From assembly GCF_000317065.1 (NCBI RefSeq), contig NC_019701.1, forward strand, positions 186,001 through 250,000: a stretch of 64,000 bases of DNA, in the 5' to 3' direction. Position numbers and translations under genes: made by a program. Within the stretch, counting starts at the first letter, position 1. Each line of letters starts with the position of its first letter. A model generated the notes under the pieces. The model was given only the letters and a program-made list of their open reading frames with translations. It had not been told where the DNA came from and made no database searches. This document shows positions 10,650 to 22,154 of the stretch, piece after piece. This stretch comes from Pseudanabaena sp. PCC 7367 (GTDB lineage Bacteria; Cyanobacteriota; Cyanobacteriia; Pseudanabaenales; Pseudanabaenaceae).

Positions 10650-12530
10650 ATGACAATTACCCAAAACCCAAAACCACTCGATCATAGTGAAGCCAATAAC
10701 CTGTGGCAGGTGTGGCAAAAGACCGTTGCCGTCTATCCTGACATCATTGCCTTACATGATCCCCACGCCAAGCCAGAAGTTAAGTTGACCTATCAAGAAA
10801 CCTTTAGCCTAATCAATCAATTTGGAGCGGGGTTGCGATCGCTTGGGGTCAAAGCAGGCGATAAGGTGGCCTTGATCGCGGACAATTCTTCGCGGTGGTT
10901 GATTGCCGATCAGGGCATTTTGGCGATCGGGGCGGCCAATGCTACTCGCAGCTCTCAGGCAGAACGGACTGAATTGCTTTACATTGTCGAACATAGTGAT
11001 AGCACTGCGCTGGTGGTGGAAAATTTAGCCACGCTGCAAAAACTACAGCCAGATCTGCAAGATTTACCAATTAAGCTAATTGTTTTGCTCAGTGATGAGG
11101 AACCACCGGAGGGCGCATACAACTATCAGCAGGTATGCGATCGCGGTGTTGATAAAGATCTCGGCGATCCCCAAATCACCCGTGATACCCTGGCCACCCT
11201 GATTTATACCTCTGGTACTTCTGGCAAACCCAAAGGGGTGATGCTCACCCACGGCAATATTTTGACCCAGGTTAGGGGTGGTACGGCGATGGTAAAACCT
11301 TTTCCTGGCGATCGGATTCTGTCAATTTTACCCACCTGGCATAGCTATGAACGTTCCTGTGAATATTTCCTTTTCTCCCAGGGTGTAACTCAGATCTATA
11401 CTAATTTGCGCAAGATCAAAAATGACCTGGCTACTTTCAAGCCTCAATATATGTTGGCAGTGCCTAGATTGTGGGAGAGCATTTATGAGGGGATTCAGCG
11501 TAAATTTGATGCCGAATCAGCCACCAAACGCAAGTTGATTAATTTCCTGCTCAATGCCAGTAATACCTACATCAAGGCACGACGGGTGGTAAATGGGTTG
11601 AGTTTAACTGGGGGCAATCAACTTAAGGCCAGGCTAACCATGTTTGCCTATGCACCGCTCTATTGGCTGGCGAAAAAGCTGGTATTTGATAAAATCCGCG
11701 CCGGAATTGGTGGTGAGTTTAAATATATTTGCAGTGGCGGTGGTGCGTTGCAGCCCCATTTGGAGTTGTTCTACGAGGCAGCCCAGATTGAGATTCTGGT
11801 GGGCTATGGCCTGACCGAAACTTCACCAATGGTGACGGCAAGGCGACCAGAGCGGAATTTGCGTACTACTTCTGGGATTCCGTTGCCCGATGCGGAAATC
11901 AAGATTGTCGATCCCGAAACCAAGGAAGCCTTTCCACCGGGCAAGCGTGGTTTGGTGATGGCCAGAGGCCCAATGATCATGCAGGGTTATTACAAAAACC
12001 CGGAAGCGACTAATAAGGCGATCGATGCGGATGGTTGGTTTAATACGGGTGATCTTGGCTTTTTGACTCACAAAAACGACCTGACGATCACTGGTCGCGC
12101 CAAAGACACAATTGTGCTTTCCAATGGCGAGAACATCGAACCACTCTCGATCGAGGATGCCTGTTCCAGCAGTACATATATTGACCAGATTATGCTAGTT
12201 GGCCAGGATCAACGGCAACTGGGCGCATTGATTGTACCCAACCTCAAGGCTTTGGAAGTTGATGGGCTGCTACCGGCTGACTCAGAATTGGCTGAGTCGA
12301 TCGATTTACTCAATCAAGACAAAATTCGCAATGTGTTTCGCAGTGAGCTAACCCGTAAAGTCCAGGATCGCCCTGGCCAAAGCATCAACGATCGAATTGG
12401 CCCATTTGAATTTCTGCCCGAACCATTTGACATCAGCAATGGTATGATGACCCAGACTTTTAAAGTGAAGCGCAATGTGGTGACGGAGCGCTACCGCGAT
12501 CTTATTGACCAAATGTTTACCAAAGCCTAG
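10650..12530 (+). CDS. aas: Long-chain acyl-ACP/acyl-CoA synthetase
   Basis: A 626-residue adenylate-forming enzyme. It activates free fatty acids with ATP and, in cyanobacteria, transfers them mainly to acyl carrier protein to recycle fatty acids released from membrane lipids. The AMP-binding signature LIYTSGTSGKPKGVMLTHGN lies near residues 185-205; later motifs are VGYGLTETSPMV, the ATP-pocket NTGDLGFL and the hinge region GRAKDTIVLSNGENIEP. The length fits cyanobacterial Aas of the Slr1609 type. The symbol rests on that resemblance; a CoA-specific enzyme is the alternative. The YlqD-like gene follows after 30 bases and the phosphoesterase after that, suggesting an operon. Confidence 0.9.
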   Translation: MTITQNPKPLDHSEANNLWQVWQKTVAVYPDIIALHDPHAKPEVKLTYQETFSLINQFGAGLRSLGVKAGDKVALIADNSSRWLIADQGILAIGAANATRSSQAERTELLYIVEHSDSTALVVENLATLQKLQPDLQDLPIKLIVLLSDEEPPEGAYNYQQVCDRGVDKDLGDPQITRDTLATLIYTSGTSGKPKGVMLTHGNILTQVRGGTAMVKPFPGDRILSILPTWHSYERSCEYFLFSQGVTQIYTNLRKIKNDLATFKPQYMLAVPRLWESIYEGIQRKFDAESATKRKLINFLLNASNTYIKARRVVNGLSLTGGNQLKARLTMFAYAPLYWLAKKLVFDKIRAGIGGEFKYICSGGGALQPHLELFYEAAQIEILVGYGLTETSPMVTARRPERNLRTTSGIPLPDAEIKIVDPETKEAFPPGKRGLVMARGPMIMQGYYKNPEATNKAIDADGWFNTGDLGFLTHKNDLTITGRAKDTIVLSNGENIEPLSIEDACSSSTYIDQIMLVGQDQRQLGALIVPNLKALEVDGLLPADSELAESIDLLNQDKIRNVFRSELTRKVQDRPGQSINDRIGPFEFLPEPFDISNGMMTQTFKVKRNVVTERYRDLIDQMFTKA

Positions 12531-12560: not shown

Positions 12561-13067
12561 ATGGGTTCTATAGACTTTGAAAATCAACTTTTGCTGAAGC
12601 GCACCGCGAATATTAAGGTAATTGTAACGGCACGCTGGAAGGACGAAATGCAACAACAACTACAGTTGCAAATTGGTCAGTCCGATACTCAATTGCAACA
12701 GCTTGATGCTCAGGCGCAGCGTGTGATCGCCGAAATTGAGCGCCAAAGTGTGCAACCCCCTGGACCAGAAGTGACCAGAGAAATTGAGTCGATTCGCACC
12801 CAGGCGAATAATCAAAAGGCACAGTTGCTAGAGCGCAAGAATCAATTTTTACAACAGCTCAACCAGGTGCAAGTATTAGAGCTAGAACAGGAAGTTAGTC
12901 AGGGGCAGATCGACAGCTTTTTCCCGATCGCCCAGGGTGATAATTTAATCGCCGAAATGTATGTGGAAATGGTTTTGCGCGATGGTGTGGTCGAAGAAAT
13001 TCGCAAGGGATTTCCCAAGGTAGTGCAACCTGCACCCCAACAACAGGATATGTCAATGGGCGGCTAG
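12561..13067 (+). CDS. YlqD-like coiled-coil protein
   Basis: A 168-residue protein. The N-terminal LLKRTANIKVIVTARWKDEM segment and the long Gln/Glu-rich coiled coil (about residues 30-115) are the pattern of the YlqD family, widespread in cyanobacteria and Firmicutes but of unknown function. The C-terminal part (about 115-155, DSFFPIAQGDNLIAEMYVEM) looks like a small beta-rich domain, ending in a Gln/Pro tail. It is soluble, with no signal peptide. It sits 30 bases after the acyl-ACP synthetase and 30 bases before the metallophosphoesterase, so co-transcription is likely. Confidence 0.75.
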   Translation: MGSIDFENQLLLKRTANIKVIVTARWKDEMQQQLQLQIGQSDTQLQQLDAQAQRVIAEIERQSVQPPGPEVTREIESIRTQANNQKAQLLERKNQFLQQLNQVQVLELEQEVSQGQIDSFFPIAQGDNLIAEMYVEMVLRDGVVEEIRKGFPKVVQPAPQQQDMSMGG

Positions 13068-13097: not shown

Positions 13098-14231
13098 ATG
13101 CTACCGCGATCGGCAGATCTGATCTATAACCTGATGATGCTGGTAGCCAATTGGGTGTTGCTGTATTTGGGATCGCGGCTGGCACGGTGGCGCACCTCGC
13201 GGCTGTGGCTCCTGGGCTTTGCCATTTTTGGATCAACCTTGCTGGCAGGTTTGGGGGCGATCGCTGCTAAGTTAATTGCCCTCCGCCTTGATCAGCACTT
13301 GTTTGGTATGGCACGGTTGTTTTCCTACGCGCTATTTATACATGGCGTGATTTTTTTTGCGGCGATCGCGGTAATTGCCATGTGGGGAGGCCGTCGTAGC
13401 CGTACCCGCCGTCATCGCTTTGATGGTAGCCGCAAATTGGCGATCGCTTCTTTTTTAATCGCCCTTACGCTGGCCTTGGTGGGTGCTTATGCGTTTTTGA
13501 TTGAGCCCTACTGGTTGGCTGTTTCGCGGCATCAAATTGTTTCATCTAAAATCACTGCCCCGATCAGGGTTTTGGTGATTGCGGATTTACAAACCGATGT
13601 GTGGAGTAATTATGAGCGCAAGGCGCTATTAACGGCTCAGGCTCAAAATGCCGATTTGATCCTGTGGGCGGGGGATTATATCCAGGCCGATTCAACTGAG
13701 TTTTTAGCACTTAGTACCAAAATTAATAATTTTTTGCAGGCGATCGAGCTAAATGCACCCCTGGGCAACTATGCGGTACAGGGCAACATTGATTATGACA
13801 ATTGGCCCCAAATTTTCTTCGATCTGCCGATCCAAACCATCACCACTACGCAAACCATTGAATTACCAGGGCTATGTTTAACGGGATTAGCCTGGCGTGA
13901 TTCCTTTAGCACCAAACAGCAAGTGGCTGGCTGTGGCGATCGCTTTCATATTGTGCTGGGTCATGCGCCGGATTATGCCCTGGGCGAAATCGATGCAGAT
14001 CTTATGCTGGCTGGACATACCCACGGCGGTCAGGTGAGATTGCCCTTTTTTGGGGCGCTGATGACAGCCTCAAAGATACCGAGAGCATGGGTAGCGGGAT
14101 TAACTAATCTACCGGACGATCGCGCCCTCTTGGTTTCGCGTGGCGTAGGAATGGAGCGGGGCTATGCACCCAGGGTTAGATTTCTCTGCCGCCCTGAGCT
14201 GGTGGTAATCGATTTACTGCCTGCGGCTTAA
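13098..14231 (+). CDS. Membrane-anchored metallophosphoesterase with altered metal ligands
   Basis: A 377-residue protein with about four N-terminal membrane helices (residues 10-145) followed by a calcineurin-like phosphoesterase domain. Motifs in order are VIADLQTD (about 157), WAGDYIQ (about 190), GNIDYDN (about 230), GHAPDY (about 287) and GHTHGGQ (about 307). The YkuE/YaeI type is expected to cleave phosphate esters such as lipid A or UDP-sugar lipids at the membrane. Two usual metal or catalytic residues differ: the His of the DxH motif is Gln and the His of GNHD is Ile, so activity may be weak, changed or lost. The other motifs are intact and the gene shows no decay. The catalytic domain follows the last helix directly. 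Confidence 0.82.
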   Translation: MLPRSADLIYNLMMLVANWVLLYLGSRLARWRTSRLWLLGFAIFGSTLLAGLGAIAAKLIALRLDQHLFGMARLFSYALFIHGVIFFAAIAVIAMWGGRRSRTRRHRFDGSRKLAIASFLIALTLALVGAYAFLIEPYWLAVSRHQIVSSKITAPIRVLVIADLQTDVWSNYERKALLTAQAQNADLILWAGDYIQADSTEFLALSTKINNFLQAIELNAPLGNYAVQGNIDYDNWPQIFFDLPIQTITTTQTIELPGLCLTGLAWRDSFSTKQQVAGCGDRFHIVLGHAPDYALGEIDADLMLAGHTHGGQVRLPFFGALMTASKIPRAWVAGLTNLPDDRALLVSRGVGMERGYAPRVRFLCRPELVVIDLLPAA

Positions 14232-16316: not shown

Positions 16317-19300
16317 ATGCTCAATCTTCCGGGCTTTCGCATCTCCCACCAGGTTAGTCATAACTCTAAACGGGTTATTTTTCGTGGTGTGCGTACGATC
16401 GATAATCTGCCAGTTTTGCTGAAGTCCATCCCCGATGAATACCCCAGCCCCACCAAGATTTTAAGGCTCAAACATGAGAGTACGATCGCCCGCAACTTAA
16501 ATATTCCCGGCATTGTTAAAGCTCTGACTCTGATTAATAGCGCCCCAGCTCCCGTAATCGTGCTGGAAGATTTTGATGGCATCTTGCTCAAGGATTTACT
16601 CAGCGATCGGCGATTCACACTGCGTGAATTTCTCGAAATCATGATTCAGCTCACCGAAACCCTATCCGCCCTCCACCAGCAAAACATCATCCACCGCGAT
16701 CTCAATCCCTACAGCATTTTAATTAATCCAACCACTTTGCAGGTAAAGATTGTTAATTTCATGTGTGCGGCTTCCCAATTAGCAACACTCAATCAGGTGA
16801 TGCGCACCACCTCCTATGCGGATCTGCCGGATGGCAATCTGGCCTATGTCTCGCCGGAGCAAACTGGGCGCATGAATCGCAGTGTGGACTATCGCACTGA
16901 TTTTTATTCCCTGGGGATTACCTGTTATGAGTTGCTCACTGGACATCTTCCCTTTGATCAACTCGATGCCCTGGAACTGGTGCATTGCCACATTGCCAGA
17001 CAACCAGCCGATGTCCAAGAGGTCAATCCAGATATTCCTGTTGTGCTTTCAGACCTGGTAATGAAGCTGATGGCCAAAAATGCCGAAGAAAGGTATCAGA
17101 CCGCCTGGGGGCTCAAATCCGATCTGCAAGAATGCCTGCGTTTGTTGGTGGAAGACGGCGATCGCCCCTTCATTCCCACGTTCCCCTTGGCCGAGCATGA
17201 TCTAGCCAGCCATTTTCAGATCCCAGCCAAAGTCTATGGCCGCGATCGGCAACTGCAACAAATTGAAGCGGCGTTTGAGCGCACTAGCACAGGGGCAGCA
17301 GAGATGTTGTGGATATCTGGCCAGGCAGGTTTAGGCAAAACTACTTTGATCAAGGAGGCCTGTCAGTTTATTGCCCAACAGCGGGGCTATTTTATGCTGT
17401 GTAAGTTTGATCAATATCAACGTAATATCCCCTACGGCCGCTTGATCGCTGCTTTTAGTGAGTTTATTCGCACTATTTTGACCGAAACCGAAGCCCAATT
17501 GCAACGCTGGCGCGAGATTTTGTTAGAAAACCTGGCGGGGAATGGGCAGGTGATTGTGGACATTATGCCAGAGTTGGAAATTATTATTGGCAAGCAACCA
17601 TCCCTACCAGCCCTGGGTGCGATCGAATCGCAGAATCGGTTTAATCTGGTCTTCCAGAACTTTGCGCGGGCGTTTTGTCGGATTCACTATCCGCTGGCAA
17701 TTTTCTTTGATGGCTTGCAATGGGCTGACCCCACTACTTTGAATCTGCTAGAGCTGATCATGATGGATAATCAAATCCATTCTTTGCTACTGGTCGGTGC
17801 CTATAGACCCTCAAAGGTAACCTTGCATGAAGAGCAGTCTCCTAGCGTAAAGCCAGAAACTCCAACTAACTCAGCTAATCATAGCGATCGCCTCCTCTTG
17901 GCAACAATCGCCCGGATCGAAGCCATGCAGAGCCATCCGGTCAGTGCGATCGACCTGCCGGCTTGGCAACGGCAGCAAGTAGTTCAGCTTCTGGCAGATA
18001 CGCTGCATACTCAGGCTGAGAACGTGGAACCACTGGCAGAGGTAGTTCTAGCCAAAACCCTCGGCAATCCTCTGTTTGTGATTGAGTTTATTCAGCAACT
18101 GGCCGAGCAAAAAGTAATTCAGTTCAATGCCAAAAGCATTAGTTGGCGCTGGGATCTAAGTCAAGCTGAACGGCTGAGTATTACTGATAATGCCGTAGAT
18201 TTGATGGTGGCAAAGTTACAAAAGTTGCCCACTGCTACCCACGATCTTTTACAGGTGGCGGCCTGCGTTGGTGATGCGTTTGGAGCCAAGTTTCTGGGGA
18301 TGATCGTGGATTGCGACCCCGCCGCGATCGAAAATCAATTAATCCCTGCCACCAAGGCTGGTCTCTTGGTGCAATATTATTTAATTGAAACCAGTGATCA
18401 AAAGTCGCTCTCGTTTTTATTTGGCGAAGAAGTTGAATATCGATTTGCCCACGATCGGGTACAAAAAGCGGCCTATGCCCTGCTGGAAGATCAACGTCAG
18501 CAACAATTGCATCTCCAGATTGGCCGAGTAGCGCTGGCTAAATATGAACAGCACCCCACCAGTGCAAGCGAACAAATTTTTGATATTGTGGAGCAACTCA
18601 ATTTGGGGCAAGAGTTAGTTCACAATCGCCAGGAAAAACATCAATTGGCGCGTTTGAATTTGTTGGCTGGGCAACGGGCAAAGCAAGCCACCGCCTATGC
18701 CCTGGCGATCAATTATTTTCAAGTTGGTACTGATATTTTGTTGCATGATTGCTGGCAGACTGAGTATCAGCTTGCCTTTGAGCTATTCCGCGATCGGGCA
18801 GAGTGCGAATATTTATGTGGCAACTTTGCCGCAGCAACGGAATTTTTCCAACTGTGCCTGGAACATGCCCAAAATGTTCAAGATCGGATCGATATTTATA
18901 TCATCCAACTGGTGCTATGGATCAATCAAAACCGCAACCTGGAAGCGATCGACCTTGGCCGTGATGGTCTTCAACAATTAGGGCTTGAGCCGCTGCCCAG
19001 ACATCCCGATCGTGATTTGATTTTGCAGCGCGTCAACCAGATCAAAGCTCAAATTAAGCTGACCCTGAGTAGCCATAACCTGGCGCAAATTGAAAACCTG
19101 GTGGACTTGCCCAATATGCAATCGCCAACCCTGCAACAGGCGATGAAGCTGATGCAATATATGGCAGCGGCAGCAATCCGGTGCGATCGCAGTTTTTATA
19201 TTCTAGTGATCCTGGCAATGGTGCAGCTTTCGTTGGAGCATGGCAACTGTGGCACTTCGGTCTATGCCTACTCCGCCTATGGTTCAATTTTAGGGGCTGG

Positions 19301-22154
19301 GTTTAATGAATATGAAAATGGCCATCAATTTGGCAAGGCTGCTCTGGCATTAAGTGATAAGTTTTCCACCCTGGCCGGGATCAGTCATTTCAGCTATGGT
19401 GGCTTCATTGGTCATTGGCGACGACCCTTCAGTGAATGCCTACAATATCTAATCCATGCCTTCCAACTTTGCGCCGCTAGTGGTGAGCTGCTATATGCCG
19501 TATATACGCTGGTTTTGATCGCCGAGACAGCGATCATCAGCGGTACGTCCCTGGGCAATGCCTTTAATGAGGTGATGCGCTGTAAACAATTGGCTCAGCA
19601 ACGGCAGTATGAAGCGATCGTCAATAATGCCCTGGTGATGCAACAATATGTGCTTTGCTTACAGGGGCAAACCGATAGTGTCACTGACTTTAGCGATCGC
19701 CATATGGATGAAGCTAGTCTGTTCGATCGCTTACATCACTCTGGCCAGGCCGATAGTGCCCTCAGCCGCTACTACATCTACAAAGCCCAGTTACATTATT
19801 TATTTGAACAATATGATCATGCCCTAGAGTGGATTATCAAATCTCGCCAAATTATTGATATTCACTTTGGCGTGGCGATCTTTGCCGAGCATTTTTTCTA
19901 TGAATCGTTGATTTTAGCGGCGATCTATGACTCAGCCGAGCTAGACGAGCGCCGTGATTATTCCCGCTTGCTCAAACACAATGAACGCCGGTTGGCACGC
20001 TGGTCTCAGAACTGTCCGGCTAATTTTCGAGCCAAGCATTTATTATTAAAGGCAGAAATTGCCCGCATTTGTAATCGACAACTGCTGGCGATCAACCTCT
20101 ATGACGAAGCGATCGCCGTCGCCAAGCAATATAAATTTATCCAGATCGAAGCCCTGGGACTAGAACTGGCGGCCAAGTTCTGGCTAGCTCAACAAAAATT
20201 TGACTTTGCCCAACTCCTGTTTAAAAAAGCCTATTACACCTATCAAATATGGGGTGCAGCCGCCAAAGTTAGCCACTTGGAAACTGCCTATGCCCAAATG
20301 CTGGCCACCACCTTTCGTCAGGCTAGTAAGGAGAGCACCGATTACGGTCATGGCTCGCTGGATATTGCCACCGTGGTTAAGGCGGCTCAGACGATCTCCA
20401 GTGAGATTGTGGTGGATAAGCTACTGGCAAAACTGATGGTAATTATGCTGGAAACAGCCGGGGCAAGTAGAGGTTGTCTAGTATTGTTGCGCCAGCAGAG
20501 TTTGTATATTGAAGCCGAGGCGATCGTCAATCAGCCTGAGGTGGCGCGACCATCAATCCCAGTGGCCGAGAGTGATTATTTACCGCTGAGCATCATTAAC
20601 TATGTAGCCAGGGTAAAAGAACCAGTTTTGTTGGATAATGCGCTCCAGCTAGGTCGATTCACCCAAGACCCGCAGGTGCAGGCTCAACAGATGCAATCGG
20701 TGTTGTGTTTGCCAATTATCAACCAAGGCAAGTTTTTGGGCTTGCTATATTTAGACAATAATCTGGTGGTGGCAGCCTTTACGCCAGAGCGACGCGAGGT
20801 ATTGCAAATTCTCTGTGCCCAGGTGGCGATCTCCCTGGAAAATGCCAAGCTGTACGAAGAACAGGGCAATTATTCGCGGTTGTTGGAACAAACCGTGGCT
20901 GAGCGCACCAAAGAACTAGAACAAGAAATCCATGAACGCAAGCGAGCCGAAACCGCACTGCAAGCCTCGGAGGCAGAACTAAGAGCCCTGTTTGCCGCGA
21001 TGACCGATGTCATTTTTGTCACCGATGCAAATGGCAATTTTATTCGGATCGCCCCTACCAATCCGAAGTACCCTTCGCGCCGTCTGGATGAGATTGTCGG
21101 CCAAAACATGAGCGAATTTTTCCCCGATCGCCAAGCCCTTAAATTTCGCACCAGGATTCAACAAACCCTGAATAGCCAAGCGACTCAGAACATAGAATAT
21201 GAGATGAACCTGGAGGGGCGAAAAGTCTGGTTTGCGGCCATTCTCTCACCCATTTCGCGCACTGAGGTAATTTGGGTGGCCCGTGATATCACCGATCGCA
21301 AACTTTCTGAGCAAGCCTTGCAAGAGAGTATGGCCAGGTTGGAGAGCGCTAACCAGGAAATTACCTTGCTGAGCGAACAGCTCAAGGCTGAGAATCTGCG
21401 TATGAATGCGGAGCTAAACATCACTCGTCAACTGCAACAAATGATGTTGCCCAAGGAAGCGGAACTCAGGCAAATTCCAGGGTTGGATATTGCTGGATTT
21501 ATGGAGCCGGCCCAGGAAGTAGGGGGCGATTACTATGATGTGCTCAGCCATAATGGACGGGTCAAAATTGGCATTGGTGATGTGACTGGCCACGGGTTGG
21601 AAAGTGGCATGTTGATGGTGATGGTGCAAACGGCAGTACGCACTTTGCTCTTGGATGAGCAAACTGATGGCAATCGCTTCCTTAATGCAATCAATAAGGC
21701 GATTTACCATAACGTACAACGGATGAATTCAGACAAGAATTTAACCCTGGCCTTACTAGACTATGAGGTGGTGCCGCAGGGAGGACGCTTGCAGATGTAT
21801 GGTCAGCATGAAGAGGCGATCGTGGTGCGAGAGGGTGGCCAAATTGAACGCATTGATACGATCGATTTGGGATTCCCGATCGGCCTGGAACCAGACATTG
21901 CTGAATTTGTTGGCCAAACTGGAATTGATTTAGCCCCAGGGGACTCGGTGGTGCTCTATACCGATGGCATTACGGAAGCCGAAAACCCCGCCCATCAGCA
22001 ATATGGGATTGAACGTTTGTGTGAAATGGTGCGGCAAAACTGGCATCAAAGTGCCGATCGGATGCGAGAGCTAGTGATCGAGGATGTGCGCCGCCACATT
22101 GGTACTCAGCGGGTTTTTGATGACTTCACCCTGCTGGTGCTCAAGCAAAAGTGA
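16317..22154 (+). CDS. Giant signalling protein: kinase-like, AAA ATPase, GAF, PAS, PP2C (SpoIIE)
   Basis: A 1945-residue protein. Domains in order: Ser/Thr kinase-like (about 8-270), AAA/PredATP ATPase (about 310-600; Walker A GQAGLGKTT near 335, Walker B LAIFFDGLQW near 460), a long helical TPR-like region (about 680-1330), GAF (about 1360-1510), a coiled coil (about 1515-1550), PAS (about 1550-1660) and a SpoIIE/RsbU-type PP2C phosphatase (about 1705-1945; GGDYYD, GDVTGHG and YTDGITEAEN). Related cyanobacterial proteins usually end in a histidine kinase; this one ends in a phosphatase, so its likely output is dephosphorylation of a STAS-type partner. The kinase head keeps Lys36 and HRD (126-128), but the metal-binding Asn is Ser133 and DFG reads NFM (147-149), predicting a pseudokinase. 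It stands alone in its transcription unit. Confidence 0.88.
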   Translation: MLNLPGFRISHQVSHNSKRVIFRGVRTIDNLPVLLKSIPDEYPSPTKILRLKHESTIARNLNIPGIVKALTLINSAPAPVIVLEDFDGILLKDLLSDRRFTLREFLEIMIQLTETLSALHQQNIIHRDLNPYSILINPTTLQVKIVNFMCAASQLATLNQVMRTTSYADLPDGNLAYVSPEQTGRMNRSVDYRTDFYSLGITCYELLTGHLPFDQLDALELVHCHIARQPADVQEVNPDIPVVLSDLVMKLMAKNAEERYQTAWGLKSDLQECLRLLVEDGDRPFIPTFPLAEHDLASHFQIPAKVYGRDRQLQQIEAAFERTSTGAAEMLWISGQAGLGKTTLIKEACQFIAQQRGYFMLCKFDQYQRNIPYGRLIAAFSEFIRTILTETEAQLQRWREILLENLAGNGQVIVDIMPELEIIIGKQPSLPALGAIESQNRFNLVFQNFARAFCRIHYPLAIFFDGLQWADPTTLNLLELIMMDNQIHSLLLVGAYRPSKVTLHEEQSPSVKPETPTNSANHSDRLLLATIARIEAMQSHPVSAIDLPAWQRQQVVQLLADTLHTQAENVEPLAEVVLAKTLGNPLFVIEFIQQLAEQKVIQFNAKSISWRWDLSQAERLSITDNAVDLMVAKLQKLPTATHDLLQVAACVGDAFGAKFLGMIVDCDPAAIENQLIPATKAGLLVQYYLIETSDQKSLSFLFGEEVEYRFAHDRVQKAAYALLEDQRQQQLHLQIGRVALAKYEQHPTSASEQIFDIVEQLNLGQELVHNRQEKHQLARLNLLAGQRAKQATAYALAINYFQVGTDILLHDCWQTEYQLAFELFRDRAECEYLCGNFAAATEFFQLCLEHAQNVQDRIDIYIIQLVLWINQNRNLEAIDLGRDGLQQLGLEPLPRHPDRDLILQRVNQIKAQIKLTLSSHNLAQIENLVDLPNMQSPTLQQAMKLMQYMAAAAIRCDRSFYILVILAMVQLSLEHGNCGTSVYAYSAYGSILGAGFNEYENGHQFGKAALALSDKFSTLAGISHFSYGGFIGHWRRPFSECLQYLIHAFQLCAASGELLYAVYTLVLIAETAIISGTSLGNAFNEVMRCKQLAQQRQYEAIVNNALVMQQYVLCLQGQTDSVTDFSDRHMDEASLFDRLHHSGQADSALSRYYIYKAQLHYLFEQYDHALEWIIKSRQIIDIHFGVAIFAEHFFYESLILAAIYDSAELDERRDYSRLLKHNERRLARWSQNCPANFRAKHLLLKAEIARICNRQLLAINLYDEAIAVAKQYKFIQIEALGLELAAKFWLAQQKFDFAQLLFKKAYYTYQIWGAAAKVSHLETAYAQMLATTFRQASKESTDYGHGSLDIATVVKAAQTISSEIVVDKLLAKLMVIMLETAGASRGCLVLLRQQSLYIEAEAIVNQPEVARPSIPVAESDYLPLSIINYVARVKEPVLLDNALQLGRFTQDPQVQAQQMQSVLCLPIINQGKFLGLLYLDNNLVVAAFTPERREVLQILCAQVAISLENAKLYEEQGNYSRLLEQTVAERTKELEQEIHERKRAETALQASEAELRALFAAMTDVIFVTDANGNFIRIAPTNPKYPSRRLDEIVGQNMSEFFPDRQALKFRTRIQQTLNSQATQNIEYEMNLEGRKVWFAAILSPISRTEVIWVARDITDRKLSEQALQESMARLESANQEITLLSEQLKAENLRMNAELNITRQLQQMMLPKEAELRQIPGLDIAGFMEPAQEVGGDYYDVLSHNGRVKIGIGDVTGHGLESGMLMVMVQTAVRTLLLDEQTDGNRFLNAINKAIYHNVQRMNSDKNLTLALLDYEVVPQGGRLQMYGQHEEAIVVREGGQIERIDTIDLGFPIGLEPDIAEFVGQTGIDLAPGDSVVLYTDGITEAENPAHQQYGIERLCEMVRQNWHQSADRMRELVIEDVRRHIGTQRVFDDFTLLVLKQK

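Follow-up and report, generated by a model that had tools for sequence, protein, structure and literature searches.

A putative membrane-anchored phosphoesterase of a DxQ clade of metallophosphoesterases in Pseudanabaena sp. PCC 7367

The metallophosphoesterase gene at 13098–14231 of the window (the whole stretch of 64,000 nucleotides of Pseudanabaena sp. PCC 7367 that was analyzed) encodes Gln in place of the DxH His and Ile in place of the GNH His, and its product belongs to a clade of DxQ proteins in which it lies among sequences of the planctomycete phylum. We consider it likely that the protein is a membrane-anchored, metal-dependent phosphoesterase of this distinct clade, which is frequent in planctomycetes and was horizontally acquired by at least two cyanobacteria. 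Judging from the sequences, the DxQ subfamily probably has a remodelled site-1 metal and is active. Because annotation of metallophosphoesterases relies on motifs, proteins without the motif residues are easily dismissed as inactive; the exchange of one ligand for the same residue throughout a clade, together with other Asp and His ligands that are invariant and a new Glu, provides a natural test of how far a dinuclear site can be rebuilt. The literature searched for a DxQ metallophosphoesterase yielded no description, and the "DxQ" of PMC3482391 refers to papain-like peptidases.

Gene, motifs and fold

The open reading frame was intact, with zero internal stops in its translation, and carried the motif strings ADLQTD (I), AGDYIQ (II), QGNIDY (III), GHAPD (IV), and GHTHGGQ (V). 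A first-pass annotation of this DNA had read DLQ for DxH and GNID for GNHD; both readings are exact and agree with the codons of the intact frame. It had also described GDxxx, HAPD, and GHTHGGQ as retained, which holds for GD at 192–193, GHAPD at 288–292, and GHTHGGQ at 306–312. The gene has the following features.

13098..14231, + strand: DxQ-type metallophosphoesterase gene (377-aa open reading frame)
13107..13499, + strand: N-terminal membrane region with four predicted helices (residues 4–30, 36–63, 67–100, and 105–134; predicted model)
13554..14228, + strand: metallophosphoesterase domain, residues 153–377, from fold comparison of the predicted model (PF00149 at 156–310)
13584..13592, + strand: motif I, D163-L164-Q165, Gln for His (codons GAT TTA CAA)
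13671..13676, + strand: motif II, G192-D193 (D193 in 60/60 DxQ rows)
13683..13685, + strand: Q196 of GDxxQ, spaced like the ligand Tyr of GDxxY in purple acid phosphatases
13782..13793, + strand: motif III, G229-N230-I231-D232, Ile for His (codons GGC AAC ATT GAT)
13962..13973, + strand: motif IV, H289-A-P-D (H289 in 60/60 DxQ rows)
14013..14024, + strand: motif V, G306-H307-T-H309 (H307 and H309 in 60/60 DxQ rows)
14154..14156, + strand: E353 in GxGxE, the second signature of the DxQ clade (E in 59/60 DxQ rows)

Residues 156–310 matched PF00149 (Metallophos) at 39.6 bits, above the curated threshold of 21.5, which places the protein in the superfamily. Canonical metallophosphoesterases contain the five blocks D-Xn-GD-Xn-GNH(E/D)-Xn-H-Xn-GHXH (PMC3087551). 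The window protein possesses the D, GD, H, and GHXH blocks (D163, GD192–193, H289, and GHTH306–309) and has GNID at the GNH(E/D) block. Neither the Arg of LpxH at the GNH position (here Ile231) nor the DxG and GDxxY of purple acid phosphatases (here DLQ and GDYIQ) was present. The scores against the YaeI model (NCBIfam NF008460; 104.6 bits) and the LpxG model (NF033458; 71.9 bits) were below the equivalog cut-offs of 188 and 350, respectively. Masking of the diagnostic columns left the protein grouped with DxQ proteins, and it has the C-terminal GxGxE (E353).

The predicted model was built from six sequences and had a mean pLDDT of 68.9, with values below 50 at residues 310–325, 328–331, and 350–363, and it is too weak to judge side chains such as the geometry of Gln165, Gln196, and Glu353. 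This low-confidence model has the metallophosphoesterase fold. Its range 155–376 aligned with Mre11 (5dny_A) at a VIA-align Z of 14.3 and an rmsd of 2.9 (181 aligned); the closest solved folds were Mre11 proteins, and purple acid phosphatase 1ute_A gave a Z of 12.7. A plain Foldseek search was weaker, with two matches at E ≤0.001, both to Mre11, and a sequence search of solved structures returned no chain at E ≤0.1.

Relatives and phylogeny of the DxQ protein

The window genome (two contigs, 4.89 Mb) has photosystem II genes, with two matches to PF00421, which among 14 control genomes matched Synechococcus elongatus only; the genome is therefore that of a cyanobacterium. Searches with the window protein gave matches in 19 of 39 relatives and in 177 of 291 genomes of the class, the own genome being counted in both. 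These cyanobacterial homologues are distant, with 26–42% identity over part of the protein among the matches listed outside the own genome, and all 50 rows from loci L012–L061 were DxH (L012 comes from a Clostridia MAG). Matches better than 1e-100 were found in two of 386 genomes of the cyanobacterial phylum, namely the window's own and G795, which belongs to a different family and likewise has photosystem II genes. The G795 protein (L145) reads DLQS and GNLE and is identical to the window protein at 128 of 247 residues. The next 18 loci of this search, for which motifs were read out of 189 other matching genomes, were all DxH. None of the 13 other genomes of the G795 family had a match better than about 1e-24, and the five loci returned were DxH. 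Three of the 50 rows (L016, L024, and L026), from genomes of the window's own family, are another metallophosphoesterase with DLH but GNWE for GNH[DE], and one cyanobacterial genome, G166, carries three tandem DxH metallophosphoesterase copies (L037).

According to the first-pass annotation, normal motifs in close cyanobacterial homologues would point to a sequencing error or a strain-specific defect. The rows read from the cyanobacterial phylum do keep DxH, with one exception; however, these DxH proteins are distant paralogues, and the nearest relatives carry the DxQ/non-His change. Moreover, the change occurs in independent genomes, the reading frame is intact, and the other ligands are invariant. 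The replacement of His by Ile at 231 cannot come from one read error, since a minimum of two bases must change (CAT to ATT). Error or decay is refuted by the conserved DxQ clade, and we assign it next to no probability.

By sequence comparison, the nearest relatives of the window protein are proteins of the planctomycete phylum and that of one other cyanobacterium, and they share the change. A locus from a Planctomycetota MAG (L011), obtained in a genome contig search, shared 49% identity with the window protein across the domain and has DIQTD and GNVE at the two motifs. The search of 343 genomes of this phylum gave matches in 186; 18 of the 19 rows from the top loci (L072–L090) were DxQ, and the 41 rows from further loci (L091–L130) comprised 17 DxQ, 23 DxH, and one without the motif. 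Rows scoring above 235 bits in a scan with a DxQ profile were DxQ; below 235 bits, the rows bearing motif I were DxH save one, and in those of the planctomycete phylum the GNH position was mostly occupied by W, F, or V. Independent genomes (L011, L145, and L072–L078) have lost both His residues and in every case carry Gln in motif I, and this recurrence indicates that the double substitution is more than chance. Within the class of L011, 45 of 154 genomes had a match at 1e-50 or better. The best row was DxQ in each of the 30 loci read from this sample, of which eight repeated earlier genomes and 22 were new, the latter being left out of the tree; one locus had an extra weak row, a DxH/GNHD paralogue.

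The phylum reached via the Clostridia locus had matches at 1e-30 in 10 of 299 genomes, all DxH, including three with GNND and one with GNNE (L215, L217, L219, and L222). Thus sampled in three phyla, the sequences place the loss of the GNH His repeatedly among the relatives and DxQ in one clade only. Two scans of viral contigs returned the same seven distant loci, of which L069 was a piece without motif I and the other six were DxH. Plasmid matches came from 22 records, all below 60% identity; the top-ranked row had 31.8%, and the highest identity among the matches listed was 40.0% over 24% of the query.

Phylogenetic trees were built with columns 165, 196, 230, 231, 353, and 354 masked. The 117-row tree, from which five short or off-family rows were dropped, placed 37 DxQ rows in one group of 38 (SH-aLRT 95) that also contains the long-branched viral DxH row L065. 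The 51-row tree omitted all DxH/GNH rows and all viral rows, including L065, and used as an outgroup 12 hand-picked DxH/non-His rows plus L146, the remaining DxH/non-His rows being dropped; in this set, a branch with 100/98 support separated the 38 DxQ rows from the 13 DxH/non-His rows. On these alignments, the DxQ proteins are one clade distinct from their sister group. The suggestion of a distinct subfamily in the first-pass annotation is thereby supported, since Gln marks one clade under masked columns. Sister-group proteins of the planctomycete phylum with DxH and GN[WF] were observed at L083, L095, L098, L102, L105, L113, and L128.

In the 51-row tree, the window protein and the G795 protein were sisters (98/91), and the pair was nested in successive groups of planctomycete-phylum rows (96/95, 98/89, 99/92, 97/87, and 99/94). 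Because of this nesting, the gene was probably acquired horizontally, and transfer from a planctomycete-like donor to the cyanobacteria is the simplest reading. The DxQ protein would then be a conserved membrane protein of planctomycetes and two cyanobacteria, with its gene probably transferred to the latter. Foreign composition was rejected as a signal of transfer: the GC content of the gene was 0.513 versus 0.473–0.498 in four neighbors, its GC3 was 0.534 versus 0.497–0.530, and it contains four GCGATCGC sites. The near-host GC and the GCGATCGC sites therefore indicate that the transfer was not recent or that the gene has already ameliorated.

Active-site residues and comparison with characterized enzymes

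Residue counts were taken over 60 distinct DxQ rows, which were chosen for Gln at 165, and therefore the Gln count at that position proves nothing. D163, D193, H289, H307, and H309 were invariant in all 60. Position 230 was D in 33, N in 24, and H in 3 rows, which argues that the coordination of metal 2 is altered too. Position 231 was T in 18, V in 18, C in 8, I in 6, A in 3, and S in 3, with N, F, H, and L once each; Ile231, whose conservation had been proposed as a check, is thus not fixed in the clade. Position 196 (GDxxQ) was Q in 44, A in 6, H in 4, S in 4, E in 1, and T in 1, and position 353 was E in 59 and S in 1. We compared the classes at positions 196 and 353 over 122 rows. At position 196, T was found in 46 of 56 DxH/GNH rows, N in 23 of 27 DxH/non-His rows, and Q in 23 of 36 DxQ/non-His rows; E occupied position 353 in 1, 12, and 35 rows of these three classes, respectively. 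These counts indicate that the changes tend to arrive as a linked set. The sister group keeps DxH and mostly lacks the GNH His, which suggests that the GNH His was lost before the DxH His; L097 of the sister group (DxH with GNHE) and L099 of the DxQ clade (DxQ with GDHD) break this simple sequence.

The first-pass annotation had called both substituted residues metal-site histidines. The seven ligands of LpxH are Asp8, His10, Asp41, Asn79, His114, His195, and His197, and His10 of its DxH binds Mn1 (PMC5016852), which agrees with that description for motif I. The GNH position is not a ligand in LpxH, in which the Asn before it is; Arg80, after Asn79, stands where other members have their catalytic His (PMC5016852). 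By this comparison, the substituted residues are one ligand and one catalytic His. The LpxH H10N variant captured no lipid X and had lost Mn1, with no large change in its catalytic domain (PMC5016852), and WipA H32A, altered in the motif that corresponds to DxH, was inactive (PMC5454105); in other backgrounds, an enzyme can thus be disabled by losing this His. Purple acid phosphatases have DxG as motif I and GDxxY among their five ligand-bearing motifs (PMC5591292), and the Tyr of GDxxY binds iron (PMC8366450). Replacement of the His by Asn has thus been destructive once, when engineered, and site 1 has been naturally rebuilt at least once.

If the protein is active, as we favor, metal 1 would be held by D163, D193, H309, and the side-chain oxygen of Gln165. 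The side chain of Gln puts its oxygen roughly at the position of the outer nitrogen of a His, which fits a retained ligand. Metal 2 would be held by D193, N230 (Asp in 33 of the 60 clade members), H289, and H307, and a metal-bound hydroxide would attack phosphorus, as in other metallophosphoesterases. The GNH His would be dispensed with, as in LpxH, where Arg is found, and E353 or another conserved group may assist. The four N-terminal helices would anchor the enzyme, with the catalytic domain perhaps outside the cytoplasm. Because the protein appears to be membrane-anchored, we guess at a lipid-linked or extracytoplasmic phosphodiester or pyrophosphate as the probable substrate. The altered metal use proposed in the first-pass annotation is plausible from the residues present. 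A more specific and rather doubtful version has amides (Gln165 and Gln196, the latter at the place of the purple acid phosphatase Tyr) holding metal 1, an added carboxylate on metal 2 in about half of the members, and E353 replacing the GNH His as proton donor. If true, the superfamily would have a third design for site 1, beside DxH and DxG/GDxxY, and the preferred metals would differ or form a pair adapted to the exterior of the cell.

A binding-only or regulatory protein, which would hold a single metal at site 2 and bind a phosphorylated lipid or sugar without cleavage, is unlikely but deserves some weight. In its favor, neither the motif I ligand nor the catalytic His is present, x is free in the motif III pattern G[NDH]x[DE], and LpxH H10N lost Mn1 (PMC5016852). 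However, the remaining site-1 ligands D163 and H309 are invariant in 60/60 rows, and the same residue occurs at 165 throughout the clade, a constancy that simple loss of a ligand would not require. The binding-only role raised in the first-pass annotation is accordingly disfavored by the five Asp/His ligand positions that are invariant in all 60 rows.

A role as UDP-2,3-diacylglucosamine hydrolase in lipid A synthesis (the LpxG/LpxH/LpxI role) is very improbable. The protein is a membrane-linked metallophosphoesterase with weak similarity to the LpxG and YaeI models, and LpxH likewise lacks the GNH His and is yet experimentally active (PMC5016852). However, LpxH has DxH and Arg at the GNH position, whereas the window protein has Gln and Ile. 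LpxG of Chlamydia is also membrane-associated and is Mn-dependent (PMC4807358), but it has one N-terminal helix, DxH, and GNHD, in contrast to about four helices and DxQ/GNID here, and the 71.9 bits on its model stand against a cut-off of 350. Furthermore, just 2 of the 386 cyanobacterial-phylum genomes had a match better than 1e-100, and the loop charges suggest a catalytic domain outside the cytoplasm.

The active DxQ phosphoesterase that we favor also resembles other branches of the superfamily in part. Purple acid phosphatases likewise lack the motif I His (DxG, as against DxQ with GDxxQ), but the window protein has none of DxG, GDxxY, and GNH and possesses a membrane region. The identical motif order is found in YaeI-type phosphodiesterases (NF008460) and in DxH paralogues from cyanobacteria, including L009 of the same genome, and the C-terminal R361, C364, P366, and E367 are common in both groups; the paralogues differ in having DxH and mostly GNHD, with E353 in 1 of 56 DxH/GNH rows, and L009 scored 160.8 bits on the YaeI model versus 104.6 bits for the window protein. 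The planctomycete-phylum DxH/GN[WFV] proteins (L083, L095, L098, and others) are the sister group and mostly lack the GNH His as well, but they retain DxH and have Asn at GDxxN in 23 of 27 DxH/non-His rows.

Membrane region and gene neighborhood

Hydropathy analysis gave four N-terminal segments in the window protein. Over 38 DxQ rows, four segments were found in 21, three in 12, and two in 3, and the two rows with no segment were both truncated. Among the 21 four-segment rows, Lys+Arg in the 15 residues before the last segment exceeded that in the 15 residues after it in 14, equaled it in 5, and was lower in 2; the window protein has 6 before and 1 after. This enrichment before the last segment weakly favors a catalytic domain outside the cytoplasm, unlike the cytosolic domain of UpsH, a metallophosphoesterase of Bacillus subtilis (PMC11898649). 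Two genes on the same strand precede the phosphoesterase gene.

10650..12530, + strand: AMP-binding acyl-CoA synthetase-like gene, separated by 30 bp from the YlqD-family gene that follows
12561..13067, + strand: YlqD-family gene, ending 30 bp upstream of the phosphoesterase gene

Co-transcription of the YlqD-family gene with the phosphoesterase gene is possible, given the same strand and the 30-bp gap; counts of promoter-like and terminator-like signals were not above those in shuffles. YlqD was present in 23 of 23 genomes searched, the own genome included. Among the 13 YlqD loci read in relatives, with flanks of ≤1.5 kb, 7 had the synthetase next to YlqD and none gave a match to the DxQ gene. 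The two cyanobacterial DxQ genes lie in different surroundings, that of the window after the synthetase-like and YlqD genes and that of G795 before an M28 peptidase gene. The latter, of the M28 family (L183, 8944–10002), lies 31 bp downstream of the G795 DxQ gene. Comparison of 13 regions with crude gene calling found no conserved neighborhood and no hint of a substrate. The widest neighbor cluster beside the phosphoesterase occurred in 4 of the 13 regions, at varying distances (L132, L138, L142, and the window's open reading frame at 16317–22154). This 1945-aa open reading frame has, by eye, parts resembling a Ser/Thr kinase with NTPase, GAF, PAS, and PP2C-like phosphatase.
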